NCBI RefSeq assembly: GCF_029338515.1
Contig: NZ_CP119988.1
Coordinates: forward strand, 1,054,001 to 1,118,000
From: Haloglomus litoreum
GTDB lineage: Archaea > Halobacteriota > Halobacteria > Halobacteriales > Haloarculaceae
Reading direction: 5' to 3'
Length of the DNA stretch: 64,000 nucleotides
The notes beneath the pieces were generated by a model. It saw nothing but the letters and a program-made list of their open reading frames with translations, was not told the DNA's origin and did no database searches. The translations under genes and the position numbers were made by a program. This document shows positions 29,425 through 49,705 of this stretch, piece by piece (position 1 is the first letter of the stretch; each line of letters begins with the position of its first letter).

Positions 29425-29541
29425 GGTCGACGTATCGGCCACACCGTACTTGAATCGGCGCGCGCAGTTACTGGGCGTGAGAACGGGAGTCAGCCGTGAC
29501 GCGGGGACGGCCTGACGGCCCGCTCCGCGTTCGGGTGGAAC

Positions 29542-31286: not shown

Positions 31287-32885
31287 ATGATATCGTTCCC
31301 CGGTTCATCGACGTCGGTCGAGTTCGACCGGGGCCAGGCCGTCGTGCTCGGGGCCATCCTCGTGTTCGCCCTGGCCGTTGCCATGCTCGCACTCTACCAG
31401 TTGAACGCCGTCCCGCAGCAGGACCGGAACGCCGAGTTCGACGCCTACCAGGGAGCCAACGTGGACATGATCGAGCTCCACAACGAACTCCTCCGGACCG
31501 CCAGGACGGGTGGTGAGGGCGGTGCGAACGTGAAGACCGGCGTCAGCTACCCGTTCCGACCGCTCTCGCCGAACCCGCCGCCAGGGACGGGGAGCCTGCG
31601 GCTCAGCGCCCCCGGTACCGTCACCGTCAGCGGGGCGGTCGGGCAGTCAGCGGACGTGGCCGACTTCTGGGACGGCGCCACCGTCTCCCACGAGACCCAC
31701 CGGGCCGTCTTCACGCCGGGCTACAACCGACTCGACGTGCCGCCCGTCGTCTCGACCGGCTACCTGGCGTACCGTCAGCCCGAGGAGAACGACGTCGTGT
31801 TGCTCACCGGCCAGTCGCTGGTCCGGCAGAACCGCATCTCGCTGATTCTGCTCGACGGTGAACTCGCGACCGCGAGCGAGACCGTCGCGCTGTCGGTCGA
31901 TCCGGTGAGCACCGGCCAGGAGCCGGTCGCCATCGTCGCATCGGGGGCCGTCGACCCGGATAACGACGGTCGCCCCAACGTCGTCCTGACGCTCCCCACC
32001 GACATCCCCGCCGACGTGTGGGAGACCGAACTGCTGGCCGGCGAGGAGAACGTCGAGGCCGTCACCGACAACGGCGACGGGACGGTCGATATCCGCCTCC
32101 GTGGCGTCACGGACGACGCCGCTGCCCGGCCGGTCGTCTACGAACTCCGGATGGCCAAACTGGAACTCCGCAAGCGCGCCGACCAGGCCGTCGCGCCGGG
32201 GGCCGCGCCGACCTACCTCGTCGCCACGGCGGGGGACGGGGCCTCCATCCTCGACTCGCAGACCGCCTCGCTGACCGTCCAGGTCCGGGACGAGCTCCAC
32301 AACCCCGTGACTGGGGCGGAGGTCAACTTCCAGGCGTCGGCGAGCGGCGGCGACCCGGGCGATATCACGCCACAGCCCAACGTCCGAACCGACCAGGACG
32401 GGTTCGCCACCGTCGTCTTCGACCCGGACGAGGACTTCGAGGGCACCGTGACGGTCGACGCCGAGTGCGAGTCCTGCGTCGGTGACCTCGCCGCCCGCAC
32501 CACCTCGTTCACTGTCCAGGTCAGCCCGGGGCCGGAGACGGCCGAACGCCCGCCCTCCGTGGAGATCGTCGATGTCTGGCGGACCTCCGGACCGGACGAC
32601 GAGGTCGACCGGTACACGGTGCAGGCCACCGTCGATGACCCCGACGGGAATCTCGTCGACGTGACCGCACGGCTGGCCAGCCCCGAGATTCAGCAGAACC
32701 CCGTCGACCAGGACGATACCACGAGCTTCGACAAATCCGGAGATACCGTTACCCTGGAACTGGTCGACCGGTCTAACAGTATCAATCCGTTCCCAGATAC
32801 GCCGATCTTCACGATTCGGGTAACGGTCCAGGACGAGGCAGGGTTGTTCGCATCCGACACCACGACCGTCAACAACGTCGAATAA
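31287..32885 (+). CDS. pilin-headed surface protein with Ig-like domain (paralogue 1)
   Basis: A 532-residue member of a four-paralogue family in this window. FDRGQAVVLGAILVFALA near the N-terminus is a pilin-type signal and helix, followed by YQLNAVPQQDRNAEFD. The shared head (about 45-320) includes the motifs VLLTGQSLVRQNRISLILLD and PTDIPADVWETELLAGE. A Big_1-type immunoglobulin domain starts near residue 333 (VRDELHNPVTGAEVNF ... DQDGFATVVF). The tail (about 420-532) is a PKD- or cadherin-like beta domain. It is transcribed from the opposite strand to its three paralogues and is the smallest of them. Confidence 0.8.
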   Translation: MISFPGSSTSVEFDRGQAVVLGAILVFALAVAMLALYQLNAVPQQDRNAEFDAYQGANVDMIELHNELLRTARTGGEGGANVKTGVSYPFRPLSPNPPPGTGSLRLSAPGTVTVSGAVGQSADVADFWDGATVSHETHRAVFTPGYNRLDVPPVVSTGYLAYRQPEENDVVLLTGQSLVRQNRISLILLDGELATASETVALSVDPVSTGQEPVAIVASGAVDPDNDGRPNVVLTLPTDIPADVWETELLAGEENVEAVTDNGDGTVDIRLRGVTDDAAARPVVYELRMAKLELRKRADQAVAPGAAPTYLVATAGDGASILDSQTASLTVQVRDELHNPVTGAEVNFQASASGGDPGDITPQPNVRTDQDGFATVVFDPDEDFEGTVTVDAECESCVGDLAARTTSFTVQVSPGPETAERPPSVEIVDVWRTSGPDDEVDRYTVQATVDDPDGNLVDVTARLASPEIQQNPVDQDDTTSFDKSGDTVTLELVDRSNSINPFPDTPIFTIRVTVQDEAGLFASDTTTVNNVE

Positions 32886-32913
32886 CGGCTCGACGATCCG
32901 TAGCGGTCCGCGC

Positions 32914-34254
32914 TCAGACGTACCGGTACTTGCGCTCGCCCATCCGGCCCCAGCCGTCGAAGACGAACTCGTCCTCGGGGGTGGTCAGCTCGTCGACATC
33001 GGTCTCCTTCTCGTGGTTGTGCGCATCGTGGATGCGCTCGTACTCCTCGAAGGTCAGCTCGTAGCGGTCCCGGAGGCGGTCTTTCACGCCGAGCGCGCGG
33101 ATGTTCTCCTCCCAGCCCGGCTGGACGACCTCGTGGTGGATCTCGGCCTGCGCGCCGCTGCCGTACGAGCCGACGAGCAGGCGCTCGCCCGCGAGGTCCT
33201 CGCCGGCTTCGGCCGCCTGGAGCAGGCCCGACGCCCGCGCGACGTGGACGCTCCCGGTGTACCAGTTGCCGACGTAGCGCGACAGCTCCAGGGTCGGGTC
33301 GACGGTCCGTGCGTACCAGTCCTGGTAGATCTCGGTCTCGGAGAGCGCGTCAGTGTAGTCCTTGAGCGCGTCCTGGAACGTCTCGAGGTCGTCGTACTCC
33401 TCCTGCCGGGGCTGGCGGCCGATCTCCTCGGCCAGCCGGTCCTCGTACTCCGTGTCACGCGAGACGTGCCGGAAGCCGAGCAGCGCGGCCTTCCGGACCA
33501 TCCCCGGGAACGGCGTGTGGAACGGCGCCAGCGCGAAGTCGTCCGGGTGGGTGTCGCCCGCGACGGACTCGTAGTCGACCAGCGCCTCGCGCATCCGTGC
33601 CAGGTACACCTGCACGGAGCGCTTCCCGTCGACGCTCGGGAACTGCTGGTTGGGCTTCAGGAAGTCCGTCTCGTCGGCGCTCCCGTACCCCTGCTCGGTC
33701 GACAGCTCCACGAGGTCCGGGTCCTCGGAGATGAGCATCGCCACCGCGCCCGCCCCCTGCGTCGCCTCGCCCGGGTCGCCACGGGCGTACAGCGCCGTGT
33801 CCGTCGCGACGACGAGCGCCTTCCGGCCGCGGTGGCGCCCCGCGCGGATCCAGTTGTACGCGTCGTCTAGCGACTGCGTGCCCGAGATGCAGGCGAACTT
33901 CCGCTCGCCCTTGTTCGCGTGGTGGAAGTCCTCGTCGTACACCTGCTCCAGACAGCCCGCGATGTACGTCGAGACCGGTTTCGAGTTGTCGAACGAGGAC
34001 TCCGTGGCGACGTCGATGCGCCCGATGTCCGCCGGGGTGAGCCCCCGACGCTCCATCAGCCGGTGGGCCGCGTTCGCGCCCATCGTCACGATGTCCTCGT
34101 ACACGTCCGGGAACGAGGAGGCGAACAGCCCCAGCCCCTTCGTGTACTTGCCCGGGTCGTCGTCCTTCGCGGGCGCGTACGTCTCCGCGAGGTCGAGTCT
34201 CAGTTTCCCGGTGTGGATCTCCACCGCGTCGATGCCGACGGCTTTCTCGCTCAT
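32914..34254 (-). CDS. hmgB: hydroxymethylglutaryl-CoA synthase
   Basis: A 446-residue thiolase-fold enzyme that condenses acetyl-CoA and acetoacetyl-CoA to HMG-CoA, the entry to the mevalonate route for archaeal lipids and carotenoids. The catalytic residues are visible: Glu85 (ATESSFDNSKP), Cys122 (KFACISGTQS) and His246 (APFHTPFPGM). The end GNWYTGSVHVARASGLLQA is the family signature of the eukaryote-like form used by haloarchaea. HMG-CoA reductase and the thiolase are not adjacent. It is placed, apparently by chance, inside the surface-protein locus. Confidence 0.94.
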   Translation of the reverse strand: MSEKAVGIDAVEIHTGKLRLDLAETYAPAKDDDPGKYTKGLGLFASSFPDVYEDIVTMGANAAHRLMERRGLTPADIGRIDVATESSFDNSKPVSTYIAGCLEQVYDEDFHHANKGERKFACISGTQSLDDAYNWIRAGRHRGRKALVVATDTALYARGDPGEATQGAGAVAMLISEDPDLVELSTEQGYGSADETDFLKPNQQFPSVDGKRSVQVYLARMREALVDYESVAGDTHPDDFALAPFHTPFPGMVRKAALLGFRHVSRDTEYEDRLAEEIGRQPRQEEYDDLETFQDALKDYTDALSETEIYQDWYARTVDPTLELSRYVGNWYTGSVHVARASGLLQAAEAGEDLAGERLLVGSYGSGAQAEIHHEVVQPGWEENIRALGVKDRLRDRYELTFEEYERIHDAHNHEKETDVDELTTPEDEFVFDGWGRMGERKYRYV

Positions 34255-34314
34255 GGTTCCGTGTCCGTTCGGTACCTTATGGGTCTGTCGACAGTGGGTT
34301 CGTCAGGTGTCGAA

Positions 34315-37300
34315 CTAGCCGGTGAACGTGACGGTCTCCGTGGTACCGTCCGCGAACGTGAGCTCGACCGTCACGCTCTGATCCTGCATATCGATGGAAC
34401 TACCCGAGTTTCCGGCCCCGGACGTCCTGAACTGATAGAGGTAGAGCGTCGCGTCTCCGGTGTCGGTGATAATCGCCTGACTCGTGAGTGCAGTGGAGCC
34501 ACTGCCGAGCGTGTACACGTCGTTCGGCCCCTCTCCGGTCTCGAGATACCCGTCGGTCCCACTGTCGATGAAGACCTCGTGATTCCACGTCCCGGTTCCA
34601 CCGTTCTGCTCCCGCAGTTCGCCTGCTGCTCCCGACGAGCTGACCGCGATATCCGTGATGGTCACGTCCGGGCCACCGAGACTGCTGATACTGAACCTCA
34701 CTCCCTCGGTACTCCCGCCCGGGCCGTCCGCCGTCCCGTCACCGTTGTAACTGACCCGTTCTGCGGCGGTCCCCAGCACCACCGTCCCTGTCTCGCCGCC
34801 CGCGCCGTCGTTGCCGACCGAGTCGAGGACGCTGGCGAGCGTCACGTCGTACGCACCGGCCTGATCGACGCGGTAGGTGATCTCGTAGCTCGTCGTGTCA
34901 CCGTTCGTGTTGTTGTTAGTGTTGGTCTTCGCGACGCGCTGGCCGGGACCGGTCACCGAGAGGTCGACCTGCTCGATGCTCGTCGTGACCTCCGTCGCGT
35001 CGAACGTGACGGTGAACTCGTCGTCGTCCTCGCGGGTGACCTGGTAGTTGCTCACCTGCGGCGCGACGGTGTCCTTCGTGATGCCGGACTCGGTCAGCGT
35101 CGCGCCCGTGTTGTCCACGTCGTCGATGGCGACCGCCTCGATGCTGACCGCGCCGTCGGCCAGGCCCGAGGCGTCCAGCGTCACGTCGGTCGTGTCACCG
35201 CCGCTGCCCTGGATGGCCGTCCGCTGGGAGACGGTGTTCCCGTTCGGTCCCTCCAGCGTCACGCGGATGTCCTCGTCGCCGTACACCGTCGACGGGTTCT
35301 GGATACCGTACGTGACGACGTTCTCGTTGCTCTGGCTGATGTCCGGCTTCGTCACCACGTCCTGCACGTCGCCGGGACGCTGGGTGTCGACCAGGAACGT
35401 GTCGCTGCCGGCGTTCTGCGTGTTCCCGGCCTGGTCCTCGGCGCCGGTGACGTCGACGGTGACCGTCACGTCCTCGTCGTTCTGCAGCACGTCGATTGTC
35501 TTCACGTACTCCGTCTGGCTGGTCCAGCCGTCGCCCGACGGGTCGGAGATGGTCTGCTTGGCCGTGTTCGGGTCCGAGAACGACACCGTCGGCTGGACGG
35601 TCTGGTCCATCGGCTCGTCGTACGTGATTGTCACGTCCCGGCTGGAGGCGCTACCGGCCTCGGTGTAGTCGATGGGTGCGCCCTCGACGGTGATGCTGCT
35701 CACCGAGGGTGCGGTGGTGTCGGCCGGCGTCCCACCGCTCCCGTCGGTCCCGCCGCTGATCGTCGTCCCGAAGACGTACAGCGAAATGTCGTCGACGTAC
35801 CACTCGTCGTCGCCGGTGCTGGAGGGCTGGACGAAGCGGATCTTGAAGTCCGACCGTTTCGCGTCGGCCGCAGCGATGCGGACCCGGCGGCTGAACTCCG
35901 TCCCGGGACTGTTCTGGACGCTGAGGGTGTCGGCGGTCGTCCAGTCGTCGGCGTCCGGGCCGCTCTTGTACTGGAGCTCCAGCTGTTCCGGGCCCTCGCC
36001 GGTTTCAGGACCACCGCTCCCTGCGCCCTCCTGCGCCCAGTACTCCACGACGATGGTGTCGGCACCGGTCGTGTCGATGCTGTCGGCCAGGACGAACCCA
36101 CCGCCGGGGTCCGAATCCGTCCCCTGCTCGCCCACGTCGCCGATCTGGACGGCGTTCGAGCCGCTGTTGCTCGCCGTCGAGTCGACCGCAACCGCGTCGC
36201 TACTGTCGATGTTCTCCCACGTCGGGCCCAGGGCTCCGTCGTTGTCGAACGAGTCGGTCACCTGCATGTCGAACGCCAGCGTGTCCCGATTCCCGCCGCT
36301 GAACGTCTGCAGGGTCGCCTCGCCGAGTGTCCGGGGGTCCGCGAGGTCGAGTGCCGTCTCCGCCCGCCCGGCCGAGGTGGTCGTCTGCGTCGTGGTGAAC
36401 GTCCCGACCGCGTCGTTGCTGGTCCCGAACGAGACCGGGGCGCCGTCGGTGCTGAGCGAGTTCCCGTCCGTGTCCGTCGTGAGTGCCGCCAGGTCGACGT
36501 CCCGCGGACACGGCGCCGAGCCACAGTCCGTGCTGCTCGTCGTGCTCACACCGGCCGTGTCCGAGGGGTTCTCCCACACGAGATCGTAGTCCGCGCCACC
36601 GCCACCACCTGAACCGGAGCCGCTCCCCGGCGCCGGGTTCACGGTCGCGGTGTACGTCACCTCCTCCGCGTCGTCGAGCCCGCTCGTACTCCCGGTCCCC
36701 TGGAACGAGTCGTCCGAGATGGCGAACTCTAGGTCCTCTGTGCCGGTACTCGAGCCCTCGTAGACGAAGCTCGCGCGGCCGCGCTCGTCGGTGGTGTCCT
36801 CGGTCGCGGTGACGTCGCCCGCCCCGGACGGGTCGGTCACCGAGACGGGGACCCCGCTGACGGGGTTGTTGTACCGGTCGCGGACCTCGACGACGACCTC
36901 CCGCTCCTCGTCCTCGGTCACCGAGAGCGAGTCCGCGGTCGGGTCGACCTTCGTGATGTACGAGGCCGATTCGTCCGCGACGTTGTCCCCGACGCCGACC
37001 TGTCCCATCCGGAGGCTGTAGGTCTTGTCGGGCCCGCTCTCGAACGTGATCTCCAGCGTCCCGACGCTCGACGGGGGCGAGCCGCTCACCATCGTCACGT
37101 CGGTGACGTACCGGCCCGGTTCGTCGTTGTCGCCGTCCCCGTTCTCGTCGGCGGTCGGATCGTCGATCTGTCCGGCCAGCAGGTCGTCCTCCCAGACGTC
37201 CTCAGGGATGCGCGTCTTCACCCGGACCGTCAGGTCCCCGCCGCTGGCCCGGACGGGGACGCGCTGTGTGGGCGCGCTCGTCGGCTGGAACTCCACCGTC

Positions 37301-37902
37301 TCGGCTCCCGACGCGCTCGTCGAGACGGCCCCGGTCATCGTCACCAGCGTGATGCGGTTCCCGTTCACCAGGGACTGCCCGGTTCGGTTGCGCACGGTCG
37401 CCCCGTCGGGCTGGATGTTGTACAGCACCGACCCCCCGTACGCCGTCGTCGGGGCGTTGCTGTAGTAGTTGTAGCCGGGGCGGAACACGAGCGCCTTCGT
37501 CGCGAACGCCTCCCCGCTCGTGTCCCAGGCCTGACGGGCCTCGGCGTCCAGCGGCTCGGCGTTCGCCACGACGAGGTCGCTGCGGTCCACCGTCTCCAGC
37601 GTGCCCGCCGGTGGTGCGGGGTTCACGAACACTGTCCGGCTGGGGTACTGCGGCGCCAGCCGGACGGAGGTGGAGAGCTCGCTGTCGGTCACCGCCGCCT
37701 GCTGGGCCAGGCTCCGGGCGGTCTTCAGCTCCTCCTGGACCTGCTGGTTGTGCTTGAACTCGATTTCCGAGTTCTGGTTCGGGACGACGAACACCTGGTA
37801 CAGCGAGAGGTTGATGATGAGGATGGCGAACAGCAGCAATGCGCCGAGCTGTATCGCCTGCGCCCGCCCGTCCCACCGGGCTTGGGGTCCACCACGGTCC
37901 AT
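34315..37902 (-). CDS. giant pilin-headed surface protein with Ig-like and jelly-roll domains (paralogue 2)
   Basis: A 1195-residue exported protein. GRAQAIQLGALLLFAILIIN at about residues 12-31 is a pilin-type signal and helix, followed by NQNSEIEFKHNQQ. The shared head (about 45-320) has LVNGNRITLVTMTGAV and TRIPEDVWEDDLLAGQ. The Big_1-like domain starts near 339 (VRDRYNNPVSGVPVSV). Then follow a Gly/Ser linker, a jelly-roll MAM-like domain at about 554-715 (NDGALGPTWENID ... DEWYVDDISLYVFG), three or four Ig/cadherin-like repeats opened by DTTAPSVSSITV-type phrases (about 720-1060), and a C-terminal beta domain. A TATA-like ACTACTTAAG lies about 28 bases upstream. It may act as a large adhesin or pilus-tip protein. 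Confidence 0.8.
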   Translation of the reverse strand: MDRGGPQARWDGRAQAIQLGALLLFAILIINLSLYQVFVVPNQNSEIEFKHNQQVQEELKTARSLAQQAAVTDSELSTSVRLAPQYPSRTVFVNPAPPAGTLETVDRSDLVVANAEPLDAEARQAWDTSGEAFATKALVFRPGYNYYSNAPTTAYGGSVLYNIQPDGATVRNRTGQSLVNGNRITLVTMTGAVSTSASGAETVEFQPTSAPTQRVPVRASGGDLTVRVKTRIPEDVWEDDLLAGQIDDPTADENGDGDNDEPGRYVTDVTMVSGSPPSSVGTLEITFESGPDKTYSLRMGQVGVGDNVADESASYITKVDPTADSLSVTEDEEREVVVEVRDRYNNPVSGVPVSVTDPSGAGDVTATEDTTDERGRASFVYEGSSTGTEDLEFAISDDSFQGTGSTSGLDDAEEVTYTATVNPAPGSGSGSGGGGGADYDLVWENPSDTAGVSTTSSTDCGSAPCPRDVDLAALTTDTDGNSLSTDGAPVSFGTSNDAVGTFTTTQTTTSAGRAETALDLADPRTLGEATLQTFSGGNRDTLAFDMQVTDSFDNDGALGPTWENIDSSDAVAVDSTASNSGSNAVQIGDVGEQGTDSDPGGGFVLADSIDTTGADTIVVEYWAQEGAGSGGPETGEGPEQLELQYKSGPDADDWTTADTLSVQNSPGTEFSRRVRIAAADAKRSDFKIRFVQPSSTGDDEWYVDDISLYVFGTTISGGTDGSGGTPADTTAPSVSSITVEGAPIDYTEAGSASSRDVTITYDEPMDQTVQPTVSFSDPNTAKQTISDPSGDGWTSQTEYVKTIDVLQNDEDVTVTVDVTGAEDQAGNTQNAGSDTFLVDTQRPGDVQDVVTKPDISQSNENVVTYGIQNPSTVYGDEDIRVTLEGPNGNTVSQRTAIQGSGGDTTDVTLDASGLADGAVSIEAVAIDDVDNTGATLTESGITKDTVAPQVSNYQVTREDDDEFTVTFDATEVTTSIEQVDLSVTGPGQRVAKTNTNNNTNGDTTSYEITYRVDQAGAYDVTLASVLDSVGNDGAGGETGTVVLGTAAERVSYNGDGTADGPGGSTEGVRFSISSLGGPDVTITDIAVSSSGAAGELREQNGGTGTWNHEVFIDSGTDGYLETGEGPNDVYTLGSGSTALTSQAIITDTGDATLYLYQFRTSGAGNSGSSIDMQDQSVTVELTFADGTTETVTFTG

Positions 37903-37986
37903 TCCTTGCCCTCGTTTTCCGTGGCTCGCTTAAGTAGTTGCGGGCACATCCGGGTCCCGGTCGGGGGTCCTGCGCGGCCGTCGGGC

Positions 37987-40900
37987 TCAGTCGTCGTCCT
38001 CCTCGCCGTCCGACGCCGCGTCGAAGCTTCCGCCGTCCCACTCGTACTTCAGCCCGTCACCATCCGGGCAGGGCGACGACGGCGTCCGCGTGCTCCCGGC
38101 CGCCGTCCCCCCACCGACGGCGGCGGTGCCGCTGGTCGCGCCGCCGGCGTCGAAGGTCTCCATCGACGTTCCGGCCTTCAGAACCACCGTCTCGACCGGC
38201 TCGTCGCTGGTCCACTCGATGGCCACCGGTTCGCCACCGTCCTTCGTCTCCGTCACGGTGATGTCGAACGAGTCGATGTCGTCGCCTGCGGGACAGGCGG
38301 CGACGAAGCTGATGGCCCGCCGGGTCCCGTCGTCGCTGTCGTCGCTATCGTCGTCGTTTCCGCTCCCACTGTCGCCATCGCTGTCGTCGGCGTCGTCGTT
38401 CCCGGGATTCGAACAGTCGTCCCCCTCGTTGTTCCCGTGCCCGTTGTCGCCGTCGTCGTCCTCACACTCGTCTCGGTCCTCACCGTGTTCCCCGCCGCCC
38501 TCGCCCGCGCCGCCCGCGGTTGCTACGTCGTCGCCGAGGTACCACGACACCAGCTGCTCCCCGTCGAGGCCGGACACCGTCACCACGTCGTCCGGCGACC
38601 CGGCCGGGAACCGCCCGGGCAGGCCGGTCCCCCCGCCGAGGACGTACCGGTCCGTGTCCGACACCCCGAAGCTGACGCCCGAAGTCTCGACCACCGAGGG
38701 GCCTTCATCACCGACGGGGTCGCTCGTCCGGTTGACGCGCACGTCGTTTCGCTCTCCGGGCTCGAACAGGCGGGTCGGCAGCTCCGGCCCGGGCGTCAGG
38801 TAGACCGCGCCGGGATAGGTGTTGTCGTAGCCGAAGGTGGCGTCGACTATCCCGCCACCGCGGGTTCCGTCGCTACCCTCCTCGCAGCCATCGTCCGCTT
38901 CGCCCTCCCACGACGAGCCGAGCGCGGGGTTGTCGGGGTCGGTCTCGCCGGCGTTGTTCCCGATGCCGCGGTCGTCCGTCCCCGGCGAGCCGTCGTCCTC
39001 CTCGACCTCGCACTCCCCGTCATCGTCGTTGCTCTCCTCATCGCCGTCTTCCTCATCGCTCCCCCCGTCGTTCTCGCAGTCCTCCTCCTGGCCGGGTGGG
39101 TCGTTCCCGCTCGGGTTGCTGGGGTCGGTGTCACAGTCGTTCCCGTGACCGTTGTCGTCGTCCTCCTCGTCGTCGGCCTGGTTCCCGTCGTCACCGTCGC
39201 CCCCATCCACGGGCGTGGTCCCGGTCACGATCGGTTCGATACCCCCGTCGTCATCCGGCCCGCCGACGATGCGGACGTTGTCGACGTGCCAGAAGTCGTC
39301 CGTGCCGGCGTCGTCCTGGTCGCCGTCGAGCTGGTGGAAGCGGAGCCGGAACCCGTCGTGGCTGGCGAGGCTGCCGGGCAGGTAGACCCGCCGTTCGAGC
39401 GCGCCGTCGGCCAGCGCGGGGTCGTCCTGCTCGATGCGGTCGACCCGGTGCCACTCGCCATCGGCCCCGTAGAACTCGACCGCGAGGTCCTCCGACGCGG
39501 TCGGCCCGGGCGCCTCGCTCGGGCTCACGGCACCGGGCAGGTCGGCGGTGTAGTCGGCCGACCCGTTCTGGACCCAGTAGGCGACCTCGACGAGGTCGTA
39601 GTCGTCCGTGTCGACGGTCGGGCTGGTGACGTTCCGCTCGCCGTCGGCGGTGTAGGCCGACCGCCCACAGCTCTCGCTCGTGAGGTCGTTGACGCCGGCG
39701 ATCCCCTCGCCGCTCGCGCTCCAGCTGGCGTTGGCGAGCCGCTCGGCGTCGTCGTCGCCCCGCGTCTCGAACGTCGACCACAGCAGCACCGTCTCGTCGC
39801 CGTCGAGGTTCGTCGGGTCCGAACAGACGGCCGGTGGGTCGCCGCCGTCGCTACCGTCACCGCCATCTCCGTCGTCGCCACCATCACCGCTGCCGGGCGG
39901 CCGTTCCAGCTCCGCGACCGTCACGGTCGCCTCGTTGTTGGACGTGTTCCGGTCGCCGGCCGCGCCCACGTCCGCGATGGTCGCGGTGTTGTCGAGCGGG
40001 CCGGGCACCGGGCTGGCGACGGCCCTGATGGTGAGCGTCTCCGTCGTGCCCTCCGCGAGGCCGCCGGAGAGCCGCCAGTCGCCCGTCGCCGGGTCGTACG
40101 TCCCGGCGGTCGCCTCGTGCGACAGCGGCACGAACCCGGCCGGCAGTTCGTCGCGCACCACGAGCCCGCCTGGGATGTCCCCCGGGCCGCGGTTGCCGAC
40201 GGTCAGGTCGAACGTCACCGTGTCGCCGCTGTCGACACGCGCGATGCCGTCGCCGTCCGGGTCCTGGGGCGAGGTCATCTCCAGGTACGGGTCCGCGCCG
40301 CCGATGGTCACCGACGCCGTGTCCACGTCGTTGTCGACGTTCGGGTCCTCGACCGCCGATTCCGTCCGGGCGACCGTGTACGGCAGCGCCTCGCCCGTGC
40401 TCCCGCTGGCGCGCATCGTCACGTTCAGCGTGTGGTTCTCCCCGGCCGGCAGTCCGTCCGGTATCGTCCAGGTCCCACTCCCCGGGTCGTACGTGGCCCC
40501 GCCCGCCGGGCTGCTCGACACGATCTCGAACTGTGCGGGGTCGTAGCCGTCGGACACACGGATCGGGCCGGTCGTCCGCCCCGGGCCGAGGTTCTCGACG
40601 GTCGTGCTGAAGGTGACCTCCGACCCGTCGCCCACCGCCGGCTTGTCGGCGGTCACGTCGACGTCGATGTCGGCCGGTCGCTGGCGCAGGTGGACGCGCT
40701 GGGTCGAGCCGTCCGCGAACACCAGGGTCACCGACAGGTCCGCGTCGCCGGCCGTCGCCGGCACGAGCGTCCCCAGGTCGGCGGCCGACCCGTCGTCGGT
40801 CCGGTACTCGCCGACCTCGAACTCGAACGTCGCGTCGGCCGGGACGGTCGCGTTCTCCGCGTCGTACCCCGGGAGGCTGTCGAGGTTCGCGAACCGGTAC

Positions 40901-43900
40901 CGCGTGCCGTCGGCCGCGAACGACGCGTCGGCGTCCCCGGAGCTCCCGGCGTTCGCAAAGCCGTCGTCGCCGCCGTCGACCGGCACGTCGACCTCGCGGT
41001 CACCGCCGGCGTCGACCGCCGACGCGAGGTCCGTCTCCGTCGCGAACCCGACGACCTCGGCCGTCCCGTCGCCGTTCGAGAGGTCGACCGTCACGCCGGT
41101 CGTCTCCTCGACGCCGTCGCCGTCGACATCGCTGCCGGTCGTCGCCACCTCGTCGACGGTCACGTTCGCGCTCGCGGGCTGCGGGTCCTCGCCCGGGAGC
41201 GTCCCCGTGTCGTACCAGTCGTCCGCGGTGTCGGTGTCGATGTACTGGCCGGCGTCGTCGCGCTCGCGGTAGGCGGTCGTGTCCTCCGTCCCGCCGGTGA
41301 AGGTGTGCTCCCAGTCGCCCGTGCGGGGGGCCTCCGTTCCGTAGGCGTAGCGGTCCAGCTCCGTCTCGGCGGTGCCGTCGCCGTCCAGGTCGCCCCGCAG
41401 CGTCAGCGTCGCGCCGGTGTCCGTCAGCACGTCCGAGTCCGCGAGCGCACCCAGCTGCCCGTCCCGGCCGTCGATCACGACGACGCGGTCGGCCGTGACG
41501 CCGTGCCCGGCGGCGAACCGCGTCTCGTCGACCGTCTCGCCGACGAGATATATCGGCCCGCCGGCGACGGCCACCGTCGTGCTCGCCTCGTCCAGCGGGA
41601 CAGCCACCCGACGCTCCCCGTCGGTTCCGGGCCGCTGGACGGTCAGTTCGTAGCCGGTCGTGTCGACCGGGCGCTCGAAGTCGAGGCGGACGTACTCGTC
41701 GCTGGACTCGTCGCCCGTGGCGGTGGTCGCGTCGCGGGCCTCCACGGTCGCGATGCTGCCACTCCGCAGTTCGCTCCCGTACGCGTACGTGTCGACGGCC
41801 GCACCAGTCGCGTCGCGCAGCGTCACGGTCCCGCCGTCGTCCGCGAGGAACGACGCGGGCAGCCCGCCGGACGCCAGGGCGCCCGCCCGGAACACCTGGT
41901 CCCCGGGCACGCCCTCGGCGTCCGCCAGCCGGTCGACGTCGGTCGCGTCCACGTCGCCGTCGCCGTCGACGTCACCGGCCACGTAGACGGCGTCGCCGTC
42001 GCGGGCCGGCCCGTCCGCCGCTCCGAGGTCGAGCGTCGTCGCGTCACCGGCCGCCCCGGCCCCATCGACCGTGAGCGTCCAGTCGGTGGTGTCGGTGCCG
42101 CCGGGGAAGCCCACTCGGACCCAGCCGTCACGGTCCGCCCCGGTCGCCCCGTTGCCGCCCGGGAAGTCGCCGTCCGTGTCCGCGGTCACGGCGTCGATGC
42201 GGCCGTTGGCTCTCCCCGTCCAAGCCGCGCTGTCGACCGTCGTGCCGCCCGCGTCCTGCAGCCGGAGTTCGCCGCCCAGGTCCGAGAGCACGTCCTCGGG
42301 CGTCGGGTCCCCGTCCGTCACCGGGACGGCGGCGTCGTCGAAGCGGAACACCTGGGACGCAGCCACGCCCCGCTCGTCCGCGAACGTGTCGGGGTCGATT
42401 CCGTTGCCGACGAGATACACCGTCCCGCCCGTCCGTGCGGCGTCCGCCACCGACGGGTCCGTCAGGGCGTAGGTCGCCGTCGCGGTGCCCGGTCCGGCGG
42501 TCGTTCGCTCGACGACGACCGACCAGCCCGTGGCCGTGTCGACCGGCCCGGTGAAGTCGAGCCGGGCGAACTCGGCACCCGGGTCGCCGCCACGCGACGG
42601 GTCGACGGTCGTCACGGCGCCGGCTGCGGACGGCCCGCCGCCCGTCGATGGGCTGCCGTACTCGTACCGGTCGACGAGCCGGTCGCTCGCGTCGCGGAGC
42701 CGCAGGGTCGCGCCGGGCTCCGGGAGCGCGTTCATCCCGAGTCCCGGCTCGGCGACCGCCCCGATGGGCACCACCTGCGACGGGTCGACGCCGCGGTCGG
42801 CCGCGAACCGGTCCCGGTCCACCGCCCGTCCGACCAGGTAGACATCCTCGCCCGCCGCGATGGTGTCTCGGGCCGCCGGAACGCCCAGGTCGAGCCGGCC
42901 GACGCGGCCCGGTCCGTCGATGGCGAGGGTCCAGCCGGCCGAGTCGAACGCCCGGTCGACGTCCAGCCGCAGGAACTCGTCGGTCGCGCCCCCAGCACCG
43001 GTTGCGTCGCGGGGGGTCACGTCGGCGATCCTCGACGCTGGCCCGGTACCGTAGGCGTAGGTGTCGACGGTGTCACCCGCCACGTCCTGCAGCGTGAGCG
43101 AGGCGCCGTCGTCGTCGAACAGGTCGGAATCGGCGAGGTCACCCTCGGCAAGTGTGGCCGCGGACACGACCCGGTCGGCCGCGATGCCGCGAGCGCTCGC
43201 GAACGCGTCGGGGTCGACCCCCTCGCCGACCAGGTAGACCGGCCCGGGTGCGGCGCCGGTCGTGTCCGCCAGCGGTGTCAGGTCGAGCCGCTCGGTCGTC
43301 CCGTCGCCGTCGTCGACGAGTAGCTGCCACCCGGTCGTGTCGACGGTCGTCCCGAAGTCGAGTCGCGCGTACTCGTCGGTCGAGACGCTCGGGGACCCGC
43401 TCCCGGTCGCGTCCAGCGGCACCACGGCCCCGATGTCCGCCCGCCGGATGCCGTCGTACGGCCGCTCGTCGACCAGCTCACCCTCGTCCGGCGGCCCGTC
43501 GTGGAGTCGGACGGTCCCGCCGCTGTCGGGGACGAACTCGTCTCCGGCGAGACCGGCCTGCGCGAGCGCGGAGGCGTAGACGACTCGATCGGCTGTGACC
43601 CCCTGTTCGGTGGCGAACGTCACCCGGTCGACGTCGTCCCCGATCACGTACACCGAGCCCGTGACCGGCCCGCCATCGGCGACCCCTCCGAGGTCGACCG
43701 TCTCGCGGTGCCCGTCGGCGACGACGCTCAGCGTGTGGTTCGCCCCGTCGAGCAGGTCGGTCGGCCGCTCGAACCGGAGTTCGACGTGTTCGTCGGCGGC
43801 GTTCCCACCCGGACCTGCCGGCTGCACGCCGGCGATCTGTCCGCCCTCCGAGCGGTAGGCGAACGTGTCGACGACGGCCGCGTCCTGGCGGAGCAGCACC

Positions 43901-45732
43901 GTCCCGCGCTGGTCGTCCAGCACGTCGGTGAACGCGTCGCCGTCCCCGGGGTCGGCGTCCGACAGCTCGTCACGGATCGTCCCGTCCACCAGCGACGCGC
44001 CGGCGTCCGGGGCCAGCGCCGAGGACCGCACGACCACGTCGTCTCCGTCGAGGCCGTTCCGCGCGGCGAACGCCTCCAGTCCCGTGAGGGTCGTCGCTCC
44101 GGGGGCTTCCGGCGTGAACGTCGCATCCGCCGCGTTCGGACCGACGACGTAGATGTCGACCGGCCCTCGGGTCACCTCGTCGACGGTCACGTCGGTCACG
44201 CTCGTCAGGCCGGTCAGGGGGACGTTCCGGGCGTCGGCGATGTCGCGCAGCACCCGGTTCCTCTCGCCGGCGAAGTAGATCTCCTCGTCGCCGCCGGCTA
44301 CCCCGGCACGGTCCAGACTGCCCGACAGCGCGACGGTGTTCCGGACGCTCCCGTCGCGGTTCACCAGATCGAGCGTGTAGTTGGACGGGTCGAGCCCGTC
44401 CGCGTCGGTGACGTCGACCCGGACGAAGTCGCCGCTCTCGGCGCTCTCGACGTTCGGGCTGACGGCGGTGACGAGCGGCGGCATCCGGTCGTCAGACACC
44501 TGCTCGGCGGTGTCCTCGACGCCGATGTCGTAGGTCACCCGCCCCTTGTCGCCGTGGATGCTCCCGGCCTCCACGCCGAGCGTCGCGGTGGCCCCCTCGA
44601 CCGGGACGTTGACCGGCGCCCGGTACGTGAACGTCGCCCGGCCGTTCTCGTCGGTGACGGCGCCGACCTCGCCGACGCTGTTCACCGGCCCGACAACGCG
44701 GCCGACAGACGGCTGGATGATGTCGAGGTCCACGCCACTGACCGGGTTGTTGTAGCGATCACGCACCTGCACGGTGAACTGGCGCTGCTTCCCCTCGTCG
44801 ATCGGGTCCGGGTTCCGGAGCGCCGTCACGTAGGCGGCCGGCTCCGACACCGAGCCGGTCAGGCCGACCTTCGACAGCTTGGCGTCGTACGTCACGCCCG
44901 GCTCCAGCTTCAGCGTGAGCGTCCCGCACGGGGCGTCGGGGCTGCTCGCCGTGCAGCTGTACGACCGGACGTAGGCGTCCGGGTCAGTCCCCGCCGGGTC
45001 CAGCTCGCTCGCGAGCAGGTCGGCCCAGGCCGACTCCGGGACCCGCGTCGGAATCCGGACCGTCACCGGCTCCGCGTTCGGGCTCCGCAGGTCGACGTTC
45101 ACCTCCGAGGCCGACAGGGTCTCGGGCTCGATGGTCGTCGTCCCGGTCCGGCTGAGGTCCCGCTCGCCGTCGACGAACGCGAGGGAGAGCTGCTTCCCGT
45201 CGACCAGCCGCTGGCCGCTCTGCATCGTCATCCCGTCGCCCCCACCCCGATAGAGGACGGAGCTCTCGTAGGCCGACTGCGGCGCGTCCTCGTAGTAGTT
45301 GTAGCCGGGGTCGTAGAGCACCCGGCTGTTCGTGTACCCGCCCCGCACCGTTCCGCTCCAGAAGTCAGTCGTCTCGGGGTTGGCCGCGACCGCGTTCGAC
45401 AGCGACCCGGCGCCCAGCGATTCGATCCGCAACGACCCCTGTGGCTGCTGTGGGTTCCGCAGGATCGTCCGCTCCGGGTAGGTCGTTCCCAGCCGAACGG
45501 TGGCGGTCTGCCCTGATGCCGTCTCGGCAGATCCCAGAACCGCGGCGCGCACGTCCAGCATGTCCTCTTCGATCGCCTGCTGGTGCTGGATCTCGGCGCG
45601 TTCGTTCTGCTGTGGCACGACGACTGCCTGTGTCAGCGCCACCGAAACCACCACCAGTGCCAGCGCGAGTACCGCCGCGATGGCCGCCACCTGGGCCCGC
45701 TCTGTCTCGGACCCCAACCCCCGGAAATACAT
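37987..45732 (-). CDS. 2581-residue giant pilin-headed surface protein with lamin-tail-like repeats (paralogue 3)
   Basis: The largest gene in the window. Residues 10-40 (ERAQVAAIAAVLALALVVVS) are a pilin-type signal and helix, followed by VPQQNERAEIQHQQ. The shared head has SVLYRGGGDG and TRVPESAWADLLASE; Big_1 starts near 324 (VRDRYNNPVSGVDLDI). About seven lamin-tail-like repeats fill 523-1480. Two DUF11/CARDB-like domains (about 1670-1945, SDGYDPAQFEI and RDELPAGFVPL), a jelly-roll domain (about 1970-2165, WSTFETRGDDD ... DFWHVDNVRI) and a very acidic Asp/Glu/Gly region with an interposed beta domain (2175-2581) follow. The start ATG at 45732 was chosen over 45786 because the TATA-like CTTTTAGTC is about 30 bases before it. 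Confidence 0.8.
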   Translation of the reverse strand: MYFRGLGSETERAQVAAIAAVLALALVVVSVALTQAVVVPQQNERAEIQHQQAIEEDMLDVRAAVLGSAETASGQTATVRLGTTYPERTILRNPQQPQGSLRIESLGAGSLSNAVAANPETTDFWSGTVRGGYTNSRVLYDPGYNYYEDAPQSAYESSVLYRGGGDGMTMQSGQRLVDGKQLSLAFVDGERDLSRTGTTTIEPETLSASEVNVDLRSPNAEPVTVRIPTRVPESAWADLLASELDPAGTDPDAYVRSYSCTASSPDAPCGTLTLKLEPGVTYDAKLSKVGLTGSVSEPAAYVTALRNPDPIDEGKQRQFTVQVRDRYNNPVSGVDLDIIQPSVGRVVGPVNSVGEVGAVTDENGRATFTYRAPVNVPVEGATATLGVEAGSIHGDKGRVTYDIGVEDTAEQVSDDRMPPLVTAVSPNVESAESGDFVRVDVTDADGLDPSNYTLDLVNRDGSVRNTVALSGSLDRAGVAGGDEEIYFAGERNRVLRDIADARNVPLTGLTSVTDVTVDEVTRGPVDIYVVGPNAADATFTPEAPGATTLTGLEAFAARNGLDGDDVVVRSSALAPDAGASLVDGTIRDELSDADPGDGDAFTDVLDDQRGTVLLRQDAAVVDTFAYRSEGGQIAGVQPAGPGGNAADEHVELRFERPTDLLDGANHTLSVVADGHRETVDLGGVADGGPVTGSVYVIGDDVDRVTFATEQGVTADRVVYASALAQAGLAGDEFVPDSGGTVRLHDGPPDEGELVDERPYDGIRRADIGAVVPLDATGSGSPSVSTDEYARLDFGTTVDTTGWQLLVDDGDGTTERLDLTPLADTTGAAPGPVYLVGEGVDPDAFASARGIAADRVVSAATLAEGDLADSDLFDDDGASLTLQDVAGDTVDTYAYGTGPASRIADVTPRDATGAGGATDEFLRLDVDRAFDSAGWTLAIDGPGRVGRLDLGVPAARDTIAAGEDVYLVGRAVDRDRFAADRGVDPSQVVPIGAVAEPGLGMNALPEPGATLRLRDASDRLVDRYEYGSPSTGGGPSAAGAVTTVDPSRGGDPGAEFARLDFTGPVDTATGWSVVVERTTAGPGTATATYALTDPSVADAARTGGTVYLVGNGIDPDTFADERGVAASQVFRFDDAAVPVTDGDPTPEDVLSDLGGELRLQDAGGTTVDSAAWTGRANGRIDAVTADTDGDFPGGNGATGADRDGWVRVGFPGGTDTTDWTLTVDGAGAAGDATTLDLGAADGPARDGDAVYVAGDVDGDGDVDATDVDRLADAEGVPGDQVFRAGALASGGLPASFLADDGGTVTLRDATGAAVDTYAYGSELRSGSIATVEARDATTATGDESSDEYVRLDFERPVDTTGYELTVQRPGTDGERRVAVPLDEASTTVAVAGGPIYLVGETVDETRFAAGHGVTADRVVVIDGRDGQLGALADSDVLTDTGATLTLRGDLDGDGTAETELDRYAYGTEAPRTGDWEHTFTGGTEDTTAYRERDDAGQYIDTDTADDWYDTGTLPGEDPQPASANVTVDEVATTGSDVDGDGVEETTGVTVDLSNGDGTAEVVGFATETDLASAVDAGGDREVDVPVDGGDDGFANAGSSGDADASFAADGTRYRFANLDSLPGYDAENATVPADATFEFEVGEYRTDDGSAADLGTLVPATAGDADLSVTLVFADGSTQRVHLRQRPADIDVDVTADKPAVGDGSEVTFSTTVENLGPGRTTGPIRVSDGYDPAQFEIVSSSPAGGATYDPGSGTWTIPDGLPAGENHTLNVTMRASGSTGEALPYTVARTESAVEDPNVDNDVDTASVTIGGADPYLEMTSPQDPDGDGIARVDSGDTVTFDLTVGNRGPGDIPGGLVVRDELPAGFVPLSHEATAGTYDPATGDWRLSGGLAEGTTETLTIRAVASPVPGPLDNTATIADVGAAGDRNTSNNEATVTVAELERPPGSGDGGDDGDGGDGSDGGDPPAVCSDPTNLDGDETVLLWSTFETRGDDDAERLANASWSASGEGIAGVNDLTSESCGRSAYTADGERNVTSPTVDTDDYDLVEVAYWVQNGSADYTADLPGAVSPSEAPGPTASEDLAVEFYGADGEWHRVDRIEQDDPALADGALERRVYLPGSLASHDGFRLRFHQLDGDQDDAGTDDFWHVDNVRIVGGPDDDGGIEPIVTGTTPVDGGDGDDGNQADDEEDDDNGHGNDCDTDPSNPSGNDPPGQEEDCENDGGSDEEDGDEESNDDDGECEVEEDDGSPGTDDRGIGNNAGETDPDNPALGSSWEGEADDGCEEGSDGTRGGGIVDATFGYDNTYPGAVYLTPGPELPTRLFEPGERNDVRVNRTSDPVGDEGPSVVETSGVSFGVSDTDRYVLGGGTGLPGRFPAGSPDDVVTVSGLDGEQLVSWYLGDDVATAGGAGEGGGEHGEDRDECEDDDGDNGHGNNEGDDCSNPGNDDADDSDGDSGSGNDDDSDDSDDGTRRAISFVAACPAGDDIDSFDITVTETKDGGEPVAIEWTSDEPVETVVLKAGTSMETFDAGGATSGTAAVGGGTAAGSTRTPSSPCPDGDGLKYEWDGGSFDAASDGEEDDD
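41290..44165 (-). repeat. about seven tandem lamin-tail-like protein repeats of ~140 residues
   Basis: Within the giant protein, units are marked by a strand of the form VYLVG, VYVIG, IYLVG or VYVAG, then a DxxxFAxxRGVxxDRV-type helix, a TLxLxDAxGxxVDTYAYG strand pair, and the phrase DEYVRLDFxxPVDTTGYEL. This last pattern is the core of lamin-tail domains. Units begin near residues 523, 655, 795, 925, 1065, 1210 and 1360 (approximate). Unit six carries a dockerin- or EF-hand-like DVDGDGDVDATDVDRL insert. Confidence 0.65.
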
Positions 45733-45756
45733 CTTGGTTGGTCCGAAAGTGGTCAG

Positions 45757-45790
45757 TACGACTAAAAGGGCTTCTGACAGCGCCATCCAA
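45757..45790 (-). promoter_or_regulatory. upstream element of paralogue 3, shared with paralogue 4
   Basis: On the minus strand this reads GATGGCGCTGTCAGAAGCCC then TTTTAGTC, with the TATA-like part about 30 bases before the start codon. It aligns with the sequence before 48013 in most of 30 positions. Confidence 0.5.
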
Positions 45791-45949
45791 ACCCCCGGCG
45801 CCGTCCCCGGTCGTGAACGACGCCAGTCGGGGTCCTGGCCTCCGGGTTCGTCGGGGTCGGAGCGTCCCCGCGCTCCCGATCTCGGGCGGGTACGTCGGAC
45901 GGCGCGTCGGCGCGGGGCGGCCCGGGGCCCGGCGCTCTCGCGTCCGCAC

Positions 45950-48013
45950 TCAGGGCGGCCCGCAGTCCAGCCCCTCCGCCGCCGGTGTCAGGGTCTGCCC
46001 CGCCTCGTCGAACGTCCCGGTGCATTCGACCCGCTGCCCGGCGTCGTCCTCGAACGTCGCGGTGACCGAGGTGCCGTCCCCGGCCACGCTGGAGTCGAAC
46101 TCGATGACGGCGGTGCCGGACGGCCCGGACGCTGGCTCCGTGAGCACGGTCGTCGTGGTGCCCGACGGGGTGGCGTCGACCGTGACCTCCGGCACGTCGA
46201 GGTCGTCCGTGGCGCTGTAGGTGAACGTCACGCGGTCGGTCTGTGACGGGTTCCCCCCTCCCATCCCGGGATTGCCGCCGCCCGCGTAGTTGGCACTCGC
46301 GCTCAGCGAGCGGACGGTCGGCGGCTGGTCGCCTGCCCGTGCCTCGCAGACGTCGGCCCGTCCCGCCGCTCGCCAGTCGGCCGAGCGGTTCGTGTCCACG
46401 TACGCCCCGTCCTCCACCCGTCGGAGTCCGATCCGCTCGTCATAGTCGGAATCCTCGTAGACGTGGCTGTCCCGGACGGTCCCGCTATCCGCCCGGACGA
46501 GCTCCAGCGAGCCCTGGTCGGGGACCGCGAACGACGCGTCGACGGTGGTGTCCCGGCAGTCGGGAAGCGGGTCGTCGCCGACGGTCCCGAAGTGGACGAC
46601 CTCCTCGCCGGTCGTCGTGACCGTCGCGCTGTCTCCCGGCCCCCGAAGCGTGTACTCCCCCGCCGTCGGGATGTAGACGCGGACGAACTCGGCGGTCGCC
46701 GACCCGCTCCCGGACGTGTCCGGTTCGACCGCGGTGATGAGCGGACGGCCGTACTCGTCGTTCCCGACGCGTTCGGCGTCGTCCTCGACGGTGAGGTTGA
46801 CCGCCACGGTCCGGGGATCGCCCCGGTCGTCCGGGTCGCCGCCCGGCCCTGTCGCATTGAGCGTCACCTCCCGGCTCTGCCGGACGTTCAGCGGGGCGCG
46901 GTACTCGAACGTGGCCTGCCCGCTGGCGTCAGTCGTCGCCGTCGCCGTACCGCCGCCCCCGTCGCCCACTACCCATCCGGTGTCCGGCTGCTCGACGGTC
47001 ACCTCCGTCCCGACGACGGGGTTGTTGAACCGGTCGCGGGCCTCGACCGTCACCTGCTGTCGGTCACTCTCGTCGAGGCTGTCACCGCCCCCCCGCGTGG
47101 CGACGACGTAGGCGACGTCATCCGTCGCTCGCTCGGCAGCCGTCCGGCTACCGAGGCCCACGGCACCGAGCCGGAGGTTGTAGCTCTGCCCCTGGACGAG
47201 CGTGACGACGACGAGGTCGCCCGGGGCCGCGGGGTTGGCCCGGACCTCGACGTCCTCGACGTAGCCGTCGGGGTTGGTGGCCGCCATCTCCCCGCTCAAC
47301 AGCTCCTCCCACTCCGACTCCGACAGCTGTGTCGGGAGTCGGAGCGTGATCGGACCCCCCTCGCTCGTCACGCTCACGGTCCGGTTCGTCGCGGAGACGA
47401 CGCGCGGATCGACGGCGGCCGCGCGGCTCCCGGCCGTGTCGTACTCACCCATCACTCCGACCAGCGAGATCGTCCGGGAGTTGATGAACGACTGGTTCGA
47501 GAGCGCGAGTCGCTCACCGCTCTCGAACCGGTTGTACAGCACGGAGGACTCGAGCACGGTCTCCGGGCCCCCATCGTAGGCGTTGTACGTGGGCTCGTAG
47601 ACCACGCCGTTCGTCGAGAAGTTCCGGGTCGTCCCGTTCCAGTAGTTCTGCGCGCCGTTGCTGGTCGTCGCGGTCGCGTTGGTGACGTTGAATCCGCCTC
47701 GATCGACCGTCCTGAGCGTTCCGCCCGGCGGGGCCGGATTCAGCAGCAGCGTTCGCGAGGGGTAGGTCGTCCCGAGCCGGACCCGGGTCGTCCTCCCCTC
47801 GCCGGTCGCGGCAGATCGGAGGAGGTCGCTGCGGAGATCAACCATGTCGTCCTGTGCAGCCTGGTTGTGGTTGAACTCGACCTGGGCGTTCTCCTGCGGG
47901 ACGAGCACCGCCTGGAAGAGCGCGAGACCGATGACGAGGAAGGCGAACAGCAACAGCACCCCGATCTGGACCGGCTGTCCCCGCCCCCACCCCCGTCCGC
48001 TCGGACCGTTCAT
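45950..48013 (-). CDS. pilin-headed surface protein with Ig-like and lamin-tail-like domains (paralogue 4)
   Basis: A 687-residue exported protein. RGQPVQIGVLLLFAFLVIGL at about residues 11-30 is the pilin-type signal and helix, followed by VPQENAQVEFNHNQ. The shared head has SVLYNRFESGERL and TQLSESEWEELLSGE; Big_1 starts near 327 (ARDRFNNPVVGTEVTV). A single lamin-tail-like domain follows at about 420-560 (AEFVRVYIPTAG, SLELVRADSGTVRDSHVYED), then a PKD-like C-terminal domain. Because it has one such domain where paralogue 3 has about seven, it looks like the simpler form. TATA-like CCATTTTTATC lies 28 bases before the start. Confidence 0.8.
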   Translation of the reverse strand: MNGPSGRGWGRGQPVQIGVLLLFAFLVIGLALFQAVLVPQENAQVEFNHNQAAQDDMVDLRSDLLRSAATGEGRTTRVRLGTTYPSRTLLLNPAPPGGTLRTVDRGGFNVTNATATTSNGAQNYWNGTTRNFSTNGVVYEPTYNAYDGGPETVLESSVLYNRFESGERLALSNQSFINSRTISLVGVMGEYDTAGSRAAAVDPRVVSATNRTVSVTSEGGPITLRLPTQLSESEWEELLSGEMAATNPDGYVEDVEVRANPAAPGDLVVVTLVQGQSYNLRLGAVGLGSRTAAERATDDVAYVVATRGGGDSLDESDRQQVTVEARDRFNNPVVGTEVTVEQPDTGWVVGDGGGGTATATTDASGQATFEYRAPLNVRQSREVTLNATGPGGDPDDRGDPRTVAVNLTVEDDAERVGNDEYGRPLITAVEPDTSGSGSATAEFVRVYIPTAGEYTLRGPGDSATVTTTGEEVVHFGTVGDDPLPDCRDTTVDASFAVPDQGSLELVRADSGTVRDSHVYEDSDYDERIGLRRVEDGAYVDTNRSADWRAAGRADVCEARAGDQPPTVRSLSASANYAGGGNPGMGGGNPSQTDRVTFTYSATDDLDVPEVTVDATPSGTTTTVLTEPASGPSGTAVIEFDSSVAGDGTSVTATFEDDAGQRVECTGTFDEAGQTLTPAAEGLDCGPP

Positions 48014-48862: not shown

Positions 48863-49705
48863 TCACTCCCCGAGCGTCGCCTCGGTGTCGATGCCGTAGA
48901 CCCGCGCGGGGGTCTCGACGTGTGCGGTTCGGATGGCCACCCCGTGGCCCTCCTCGACGAGCCACCGGGTCCGCCGTGGGACCGTCTTCGGCCCGAGGAC
49001 GGCGCCCGGTCGGTCGGGGTCGTCGATGAAGTCGGTCTCGAGCATGAACGGCCGGCCCTGCTCGATGGCGCCCTCGATCTGTGGCTTCTTCGCGATGACG
49101 CTCGGCACCGGTCCGACCGTCCGGCTCCCGGCGTAGTGCTTGACGACCTGCTCGGGCGGGAGCCCGCGCTCCTCGGCCCAGTCCGTGATCTCGGAGAAGT
49201 CCTCACCGCCCTCGGTGTGGAGCTGGACGGCACAGCCAACCTCGGCCGCGCGCTCGAACGCGTGGCGCATCACGGCGTTCGAGGCCTCCCAGACGGCCTC
49301 GTCGACATCGTAGTGCGGGCGCCCGGATTTGATGGCCAGCGCGGGGCCGTCACTCACGTACTCGGCGGCCACGTCGATCCCCCCGCACATCAGGTCACGC
49401 GCCTCCTCGGGGCTGTATCCACGGTCGACGAGCTGGCTGATCAGCGCGGGATGCACGCCGAGGACGGGCCACGCACGCCCGTCGAGGACCTCGGTCGCCC
49501 GCTCGACGGCCTCGACGGTGAGGTCGAACCCCTCGCGGAAGTCCTCGGCCGACTCGACCTCGACACCGAGGCTCCACGACGGCTTGTTCAGCACGAGCAG
49601 GTGGGTCCCGCCGACCGCGGCGAACTCCTCGACCGCCTCCGTGTCCCGACCGTTCACGGGGTCGAGGTGGAGGTGGTCGTCGAGAACGGGTCCGTCGTAG
49701 TCCAT
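48863..49705 (-). CDS. TatD-like metal-dependent hydrolase
   Basis: A 280-residue amidohydrolase-type TIM barrel. Metal ligands expected in this family are visible as DDHLHLD (His11, His13), the Glu in the ALAIKSGRPHYD region, QLHTEGG, KHYAG and the final ETDFIDDP Asp. Archaeal relatives of TatD are annotated as hydrolases of unknown substrate; DNase activity is known for bacterial and yeast TatD only. No partner gene is close. The start ATG at 49705 begins the first strand directly. Confidence 0.87.
   Translation of the reverse strand: MDYDGPVLDDHLHLDPVNGRDTEAVEEFAAVGGTHLLVLNKPSWSLGVEVESAEDFREGFDLTVEAVERATEVLDGRAWPVLGVHPALISQLVDRGYSPEEARDLMCGGIDVAAEYVSDGPALAIKSGRPHYDVDEAVWEASNAVMRHAFERAAEVGCAVQLHTEGGEDFSEITDWAEERGLPPEQVVKHYAGSRTVGPVPSVIAKKPQIEGAIEQGRPFMLETDFIDDPDRPGAVLGPKTVPRRTRWLVEEGHGVAIRTAHVETPARVYGIDTEATLGE

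Follow-up and report, generated by a model that had tools for sequence, protein, structure and literature searches.

In a 64,000-nucleotide stretch of Haloglomus litoreum DNA (contig NZ_CP119988.1, positions 1,054,001 to 1,118,000, hereafter the window), four proteins named P0001 to P0004 share a head of about 320 residues with a type IV pilin-like start, which is followed by a Big_1-like domain and then by differing tails. Sequence comparison indicates that they are likely to be large modular minor-pilin-like surface proteins, in which exchangeable adhesive or recognition cargo is carried on a constant anchor. The heads are homologous and have paralogues encoded with pilus assembly genes, while at a syntenic site the outer part of the protein is sharply replaced between close species and its tails are shared across genera. 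Positions refer to the window, and the four proteins are:

31287..32885, plus strand: P0001, 532 aa, with an RGQAVVLG start, head, Big_1 and a short tail
34315..37902, minus strand: P0002, 1195 aa, with an RAQAIQLG start, head, Big_1 and a long tail; the copy adjoining HMG-CoA synthase
37987..45732, minus strand: P0003, 2581 aa, with a degenerate start (ERAQVAAIA), then head and Big_1
45950..48013, minus strand: P0004, 687 aa, with an RGQPVQIG start, helix at residues 12-70, head to about residue 300, Big_1 at about 314-372 and a short tail

The shared head and its copies beside pilus assembly genes

The four open reading frames (ORFs) have the positions and lengths given in an earlier sequence-only reading, and the shared head that it proposed was confirmed: all six BLASTP pairs are significant, with E-values from 1e-23 to 3e-73 and about 27-39% identity over about 350-450 residues, and in no pair was similarity between the heads lacking. 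The head body of the four window proteins falls outside all Pfam and NCBIfam families. The motifs proposed in that reading stood in part. R-[GA]-Q and a hydrophobic helix are present in all four proteins, followed by VPQQ in P0001 and P0003, VPNQ in P0002 and VPQE in P0004, although the start of P0003 is degenerate. In the P-x-x-x-W-x-x-L-L motif, W235 and L239 are invariant among the heads, but the Pro is absent in P0004 and the spacing from W to LL is variable. The Big_1-like domain is found in all four proteins (residues 324-394 in P0001, 334-398 in P0002, 307-373 in P0003 and 314-372 in P0004), always under the Pfam cut-off and starting at residues 307-334 instead of the 324-339 first read.

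The heads are a dispersed family and not one locus of four paralogues, as had been thought. Ten copies occur in the genome, a single contig of 4.70 Mb: four lie in the window and six outside it, and in the window HMG-CoA synthase is interposed between P0001 and P0002. Four of the six outside copies adjoin a TadC/PilC platform gene, which is itself preceded by a type IV pilus assembly ATPase gene, and this ATPase-TadC-head order is found in Haloglomus and in other genera. Matches were obtained to T2SSF for the platform proteins and to T2SSE and PilB3_C/N for an ATPase; nine T2SSE matches were found in the genome, some of them adjoined by heads outside the window. Prepilin peptidase gave a single match in the genome, elsewhere on the chromosome. 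The earlier suggestion that the pilus machinery may be encoded elsewhere agrees with these results.

Of 145 good genomes of the class, 129 contain the head family, which is present in 51 of 59 genera, usually as one copy, and is expanded in Haloglomus. In an order-level survey of 59 genomes all 44 of good quality match, mostly with one or two full-length heads, and weaker relatives of the head are found elsewhere in the phylum. Two classes were distinguished among the fetched loci. The operon-linked class contains 18 heads (513-717 aa, median 561) encoded beside a T2SSE ATPase and TadC/T2SSF, which is not the case for the window copies and the other HMG-CoA synthase-linked heads. The site-linked class contains 73 heads (408-2715 aa, median 740) in the order DUF2150 - head - HMG-CoA synthase, and seven loci belong to neither class. 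A quick head tree with long branches, used only for the coarse split between the two classes, has a branch with support 92 that keeps the operon class together on one side.

The order TatD - DUF2150 - head - HMG-CoA synthase is syntenic across haloarchaeal genera and holds the window class. Three Haloglomus genomes show three tandem heads at the site (P0004, P0003 and the HMG-CoA-synthase-proximal copy) and genome G087 shows one. P0004 is the first copy of the site and adjoins the DUF2150 gene, while P0001 sits across HMG-CoA synthase from the other heads and has no counterpart at the same place in sister Haloglomus genomes. The genes of the site are:

32914..34254, minus strand: HMG-CoA synthase (NF041302), a gene of lipid synthesis, conserved neighbour and one border of the site, between P0001 and P0002
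48116..48694, minus strand: DUF2150 protein, the other border of the site
48863..49705, minus strand: TatD-related hydrolase, conserved neighbour

The pilin-type anchor and the rest of the head

The pilin-type anchor is well supported. An Arg with a Gly seven residues later is invariant in 46 mostly site-linked and 17 operon-linked heads, the exception being P0003, which lies outside those sets. The canonical start R-[GA]-V-S-E-V-[IL]-G is kept in the operon-linked class, as exemplified by the own-genome paralogue DRGVSEVIGSILVFG. An N-terminal hydrophobic segment is present in 94 of 98 heads, and 94 of 98 also have no second transmembrane-like segment; the exceptions to the latter are three C-terminal segments in genus g40 and one artefact of the chosen start.

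Among 17 operon-linked heads, DUF7289 was matched in 13 and Pilin_N in eight, in the inspected cases limited to the first ~70 residues, and the own-genome paralogues match DUF7289 profile positions 1-71 only, two of them exceeding the cut-off. The window proteins show no match to DUF7289 (PF23960) even at an E-value of 0.5. Proteins covering most of this profile are encoded close to a different ATPase gene, at 3.89-3.90 Mb, and also at 4.64 Mb. Because the first ~65 residues of operon-linked members match DUF7289/Pilin_N, the head family is placed by sequence among the type IV pilin relatives of the kind catalogued for archaea in PMC4858521. With such matches, and with a head that is almost universal in haloarchaea, the idea of a locus-specific and wholly undescribed system is not supported.

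A head-only structure model built on 14 sequences (predicted local distance difference test 81, predicted template modelling score 0.77) shows one helix of ~59 residues, from residue 12 to 70, and then an almost all-beta domain. The head profile gave a weak match to the solved Natrinema PilA2, over residues 9-39 only (E-value 0.2). Foldseek with the full P0004 model retrieved generic multi-immunoglobulin (Ig) proteins only, with query-normalised template modelling (TM) scores below 0.2, and was uninformative.

Several results weigh against the assembly of these proteins into a pilus. The window encodes no assembly ATPase, as the sequence-only reading had correctly noted, and its heads have none nearby. 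The tails reach ~2300 aa, which is very large for filament subunits. The start of P0003 (ERAQVAAIAAVL) is without the Gly and the Gln kept by its relatives and has Ala in place of Gly. In L077, L082 and L083, which belong to genus g40, the tails finish in a C-terminal transmembrane-like segment, unlike the others examined, and this is a better fit to a membrane-held protein than to a filament subunit. Furthermore, the head-only model has no significant match among solved structures in the PDB (best E-value 0.02, TM score below 0.2), and a pilin-type globular domain in the predicted head fold is therefore unsupported. The lack of a nearby ATPase, the tail size, the C-terminal segments of the three g40 members and the absence of a solved pilin with this fold would suit membrane-held surface proteins, in which the pilin-like helix is an anchor only, the protein stays out of filaments altogether, and the tail makes up a fixed coat or stalk in the manner of an S-layer-associated adhesin. 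We regard this alternative as possible, although not the one we favour, since ATPase and platform genes accompany paralogues of the same family in Haloglomus and other genera, and the operon-linked class retains the canonical start.

Replacement and sharing of the outer part

In relation to the sister species, the DNA of P0002 is conserved in the anchor and then falls to 45-69% identity. The blastn alignment ends at 37737 (codon ~55) and restarts at the stop codon, with both sides aligned, at 91% and 81-83%, which divides the gene into two parts:

37737..37902, minus strand: pilin anchor of P0002, conserved, with DNA 85-86% identical to that of the sister species
34318..37736, minus strand: replaced block of P0002, from the stop codon to codon ~55, with no blastn alignment to two sister genomes

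Orthology of P0002 judged by overall identity is misleading, because by anchor and position it is the syntenic third copy, with the outer part replaced. Between the two sisters, the third copy shows 82-100% identity for ~400 residues and then ~40-57%. P0003 has orthologues in two other Haloglomus genomes, with 78-79% identity over most of its length. As a separate observation, in an operon-linked Haloglomus copy (L067/L068, L012) the entire outer part can be replaced right after the anchor, where DNA identity passes from 0.95 to 0.45-0.55.

Between species of a genus, the anchor and the flanking genes are conserved to the same degree, and the region from the end of the head or Big_1 through the stop codon is often replaced outright. 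Identities in the pair L085/L088 are 0.97 in the flanks, 0.98 in the anchor, 0.91-0.95 in the head and 0.39 in the tail, and those in L037/L038 are 0.94 in the flanks, 0.96 in the anchor and 0.37 in the tail. When the tail was taken as the part beyond residue 410, nine of twelve genera had a mean blastn tail coverage of no more than 0.19; the other syntenic genes, preselected as at least 30% covered, reached 0.94-1.00. Among genes with conserved genes on both sides, a conserved 5' end with an unalignable 3' 40% was found in 72 of 110 head comparisons (25 of 37 loci and 10 of 12 genera) and in 0 of 479 control comparisons (225 distinct genes), the comparisons being non-independent because loci recur in pairs. 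The 5' break of the replacement lies mostly at codons 305-487 (quartiles), and of 75 measurable 3' breaks, 69 fall at -26 to +59 bp relative to the stop codon.

The exceptions in tail coverage are g3 (1.00), g48 (0.70) and g45 (0.55). Genus g3 and part of g48 show no tail replacement, which counts against our reading and indicates that exchange is not constant. In g3, the site-linked protein of L041 and L073-L076 holds one tail (660-679 aa) across species, unlike most genera.

Tails of distinct genera sometimes resemble each other more closely than do the heads that carry them. Identity between g48 and g45 tails is 65% over 264 aa (heads 47%), between g40 and g47 tails 61% over 257 aa (heads 47%), between the last part of P0002 and a tail from g33 53% over 151 aa (heads 37%), and between an own-genome operon-linked tail and a G087 site-linked tail 47% over 135 aa (heads 30%). 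These values, above those of the heads, indicate that tails have been shuffled and have not diverged by drift alone. In the window, tails described as unrelated in the sequence-only reading do differ, but P0002 (~604-724) and P0003 (~2035-2164) have a common domain (E-value 1e-6), and the similarity between P0003 and P0004 extends beyond Big_1 to about residue 445. The tail of P0003 shows seven LTD-like repeats of ~140 aa each, identified through a recurring VYLVG-type motif and starting at residues 527, 694, 832, 964, 1105, 1249 and 1394, two DUF11 domains at ~1690-1939, and an acidic stretch (37% D+E) at residues 2165-2300. Across the family, tail modules include PKD, CARDB, Sde0182_C, carboxypeptidase-regulatory, LTD, laminin-G, malectin, SdrD_B and others; this range of adhesin and lectin modules bears out the earlier notion of a modular display family with very different cargo.

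On the reading of the four proteins as modular minor-pilin-like proteins, the N-terminal pilin helix (leader, then residues ~12-70) would carry the protein into the membrane and, after cleavage by prepilin peptidase, the protein would enter a type IV pilus, with the tip as its probable position, or be retained in the membrane. The head and Big_1 would form a stalk, and the C-terminal Ig-like, PKD, LTD and lectin modules would be presented outside the cell. In the HMG-CoA synthase-linked class, recombination with other haloarchaeal DNA may swap the cargo as one cassette that extends from where the head or Big_1 ends as far as the stop codon, the conserved head and flanking genes supplying the homology, and the outcome would be a changing adhesion or recognition surface. 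A model of silent cassettes within the genome is unsupported because the ORFs between head and HMG-CoA synthase in g3, g31, g47 and g48 are not spare tails but, for the most part, small unrelated genes or a pilin resembling P0006 (listed below).

The variability concentrated in the outermost part and the exchange across species are also compatible with a recognition or conflict system, in which the variable tail sets self/non-self in aggregation or mating, or evades viruses that use the tail as receptor, and strain-variable haloarchaeal pilins and S-layer have been discussed as possible causes of differing virus sensitivity (PMC7921747, PMC5867893). We consider this doubtful, as no toxin, immunity gene or receptor data point to it and the lectin and PKD modules are equally explained by adhesion to surfaces or particles. 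Fast evolution of orthologous tails under weak constraint, by point changes and indels with no cassette replacement, is very improbable: identity declines gradually through the head in several genera, and PKD and LTD repeats invite indels, but the alignment is lost abruptly beside DNA of 91-98% identity (as in L085/L088), the pattern is absent from the control comparisons, and tails are more alike than heads across genera.

Region 28069-32909 is a variable neighbourhood on the far side of HMG-CoA synthase. It contains P0006, P0001 and, in relation to G099, a gene of 412 aa, and the corresponding place in sister Haloglomus genomes has little or nothing equivalent. Its second pilin gene and two further surface-protein candidates of the window are:

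29542..31161, minus strand: P0006, 539 aa from the first ATG, with a Laminin_G_3 domain and assigned to a separate pilin family (Pilin_N)
56803-57510: short ORF that contains a PKD_4 domain and has a Pilin_N-like first half, perhaps a small pilin with a grafted PKD module
15301-18594: secreted S-layer-type surface protein of 1097 aa that contains DUF7282 and DUF7827 domains and is anchored by the other route, through a PGF-CTERM signal

P0006 represents a second modular pilin family, and a gene resembling it is found close to the head in g31 loci L090, L091, L092 and L108. Its laminin-G module recurs as a head tail in L049.

Known systems and biological meaning

Bacterial modular type IV pilins are a tested precedent for the design. 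In Streptococcus sanguinis PilB/PilC (PMC8179133), a small pilin module bears a grafted bulky module (vWA, ConA-like lectin), with many architectures and a role in adhesion, and head-family proteins likewise combine a pilin module with a module that is not specific to pili. However, the haloarchaeal family possesses a ~300-residue head and a Big_1 stalk of its own, ranges from ~400 to ~2700 aa (the extreme bacterial example has 860 residues), and shows a fixed chromosomal site with tail replacement between close species. The word "archaea" is absent from the text of PMC8179133.

The euryarchaeal type IV pilus minor pilins of arCOG02911, as described in PMC4858521, and Pfam DUF7289 resemble the head family in being minor pilin-like, ATPase/TadC-linked, duplication-prone, variable in length and beta-rich. 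DUF7289, however, reaches only the first ~65 residues of operon-linked heads and leaves the remainder uncovered, and arCOG02911, compared here by description only, is given as ~250-550 aa; the consulted passages of that paper make no mention of the HMG-CoA-synthase-linked class. We found no literature on DUF7289 and HVO_2418/2420/2421, and on arCOG02911 PMC4858521 alone. The Haloferax adhesion pilins PilA1-6 (PMC7921747 and PMC4858521) also have a conserved N terminus, a diverse remainder and ATPase/TadC in trans, but they are small major pilins (Pilin_N), whereas the heads are large and belong to another family.

VARTIG of Thermococcales (PMC8416519) is likewise a large Ig-domain surface protein whose C-terminal part is hypervariable through interspecies recombination. 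It differs in its signal peptides, its downstream small Ig genes, the lack of a pilin anchor and its restriction to Thermococcales; the head family, compared with arCOG07710 by description, belongs to another lineage and has a pilin-type start, and no array of small Ig genes was seen between head and HMG-CoA synthase. The VARTIG study looked across archaea and reported no counterpart or comparable variability outside Thermococcales (PMC8416519), a restriction that the haloarchaeal head family, variable in many genera, appears to contradict.

The exchange pattern is of greater interest than the paralogy first noticed, as haloarchaea offer one easily found gene with a constant membrane anchor and an outer part that is replaced between close species. 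It is a more speculative and, in our view, unlikely proposal that this is a class-wide haloarchaeal recognition system, in which a pilin-anchored protein at a fixed site, with interspecies cassette exchange, sets self/non-self adhesion, mating compatibility or virus sensitivity; if true, it would be comparable to VARTIG yet nearly universal in haloarchaea. Relatives are cultivable and some haloarchaea are genetically tractable, and tail swaps could reveal the role of the pilin-borne cargo, be it in adhesion or towards a cell partner or a virus.

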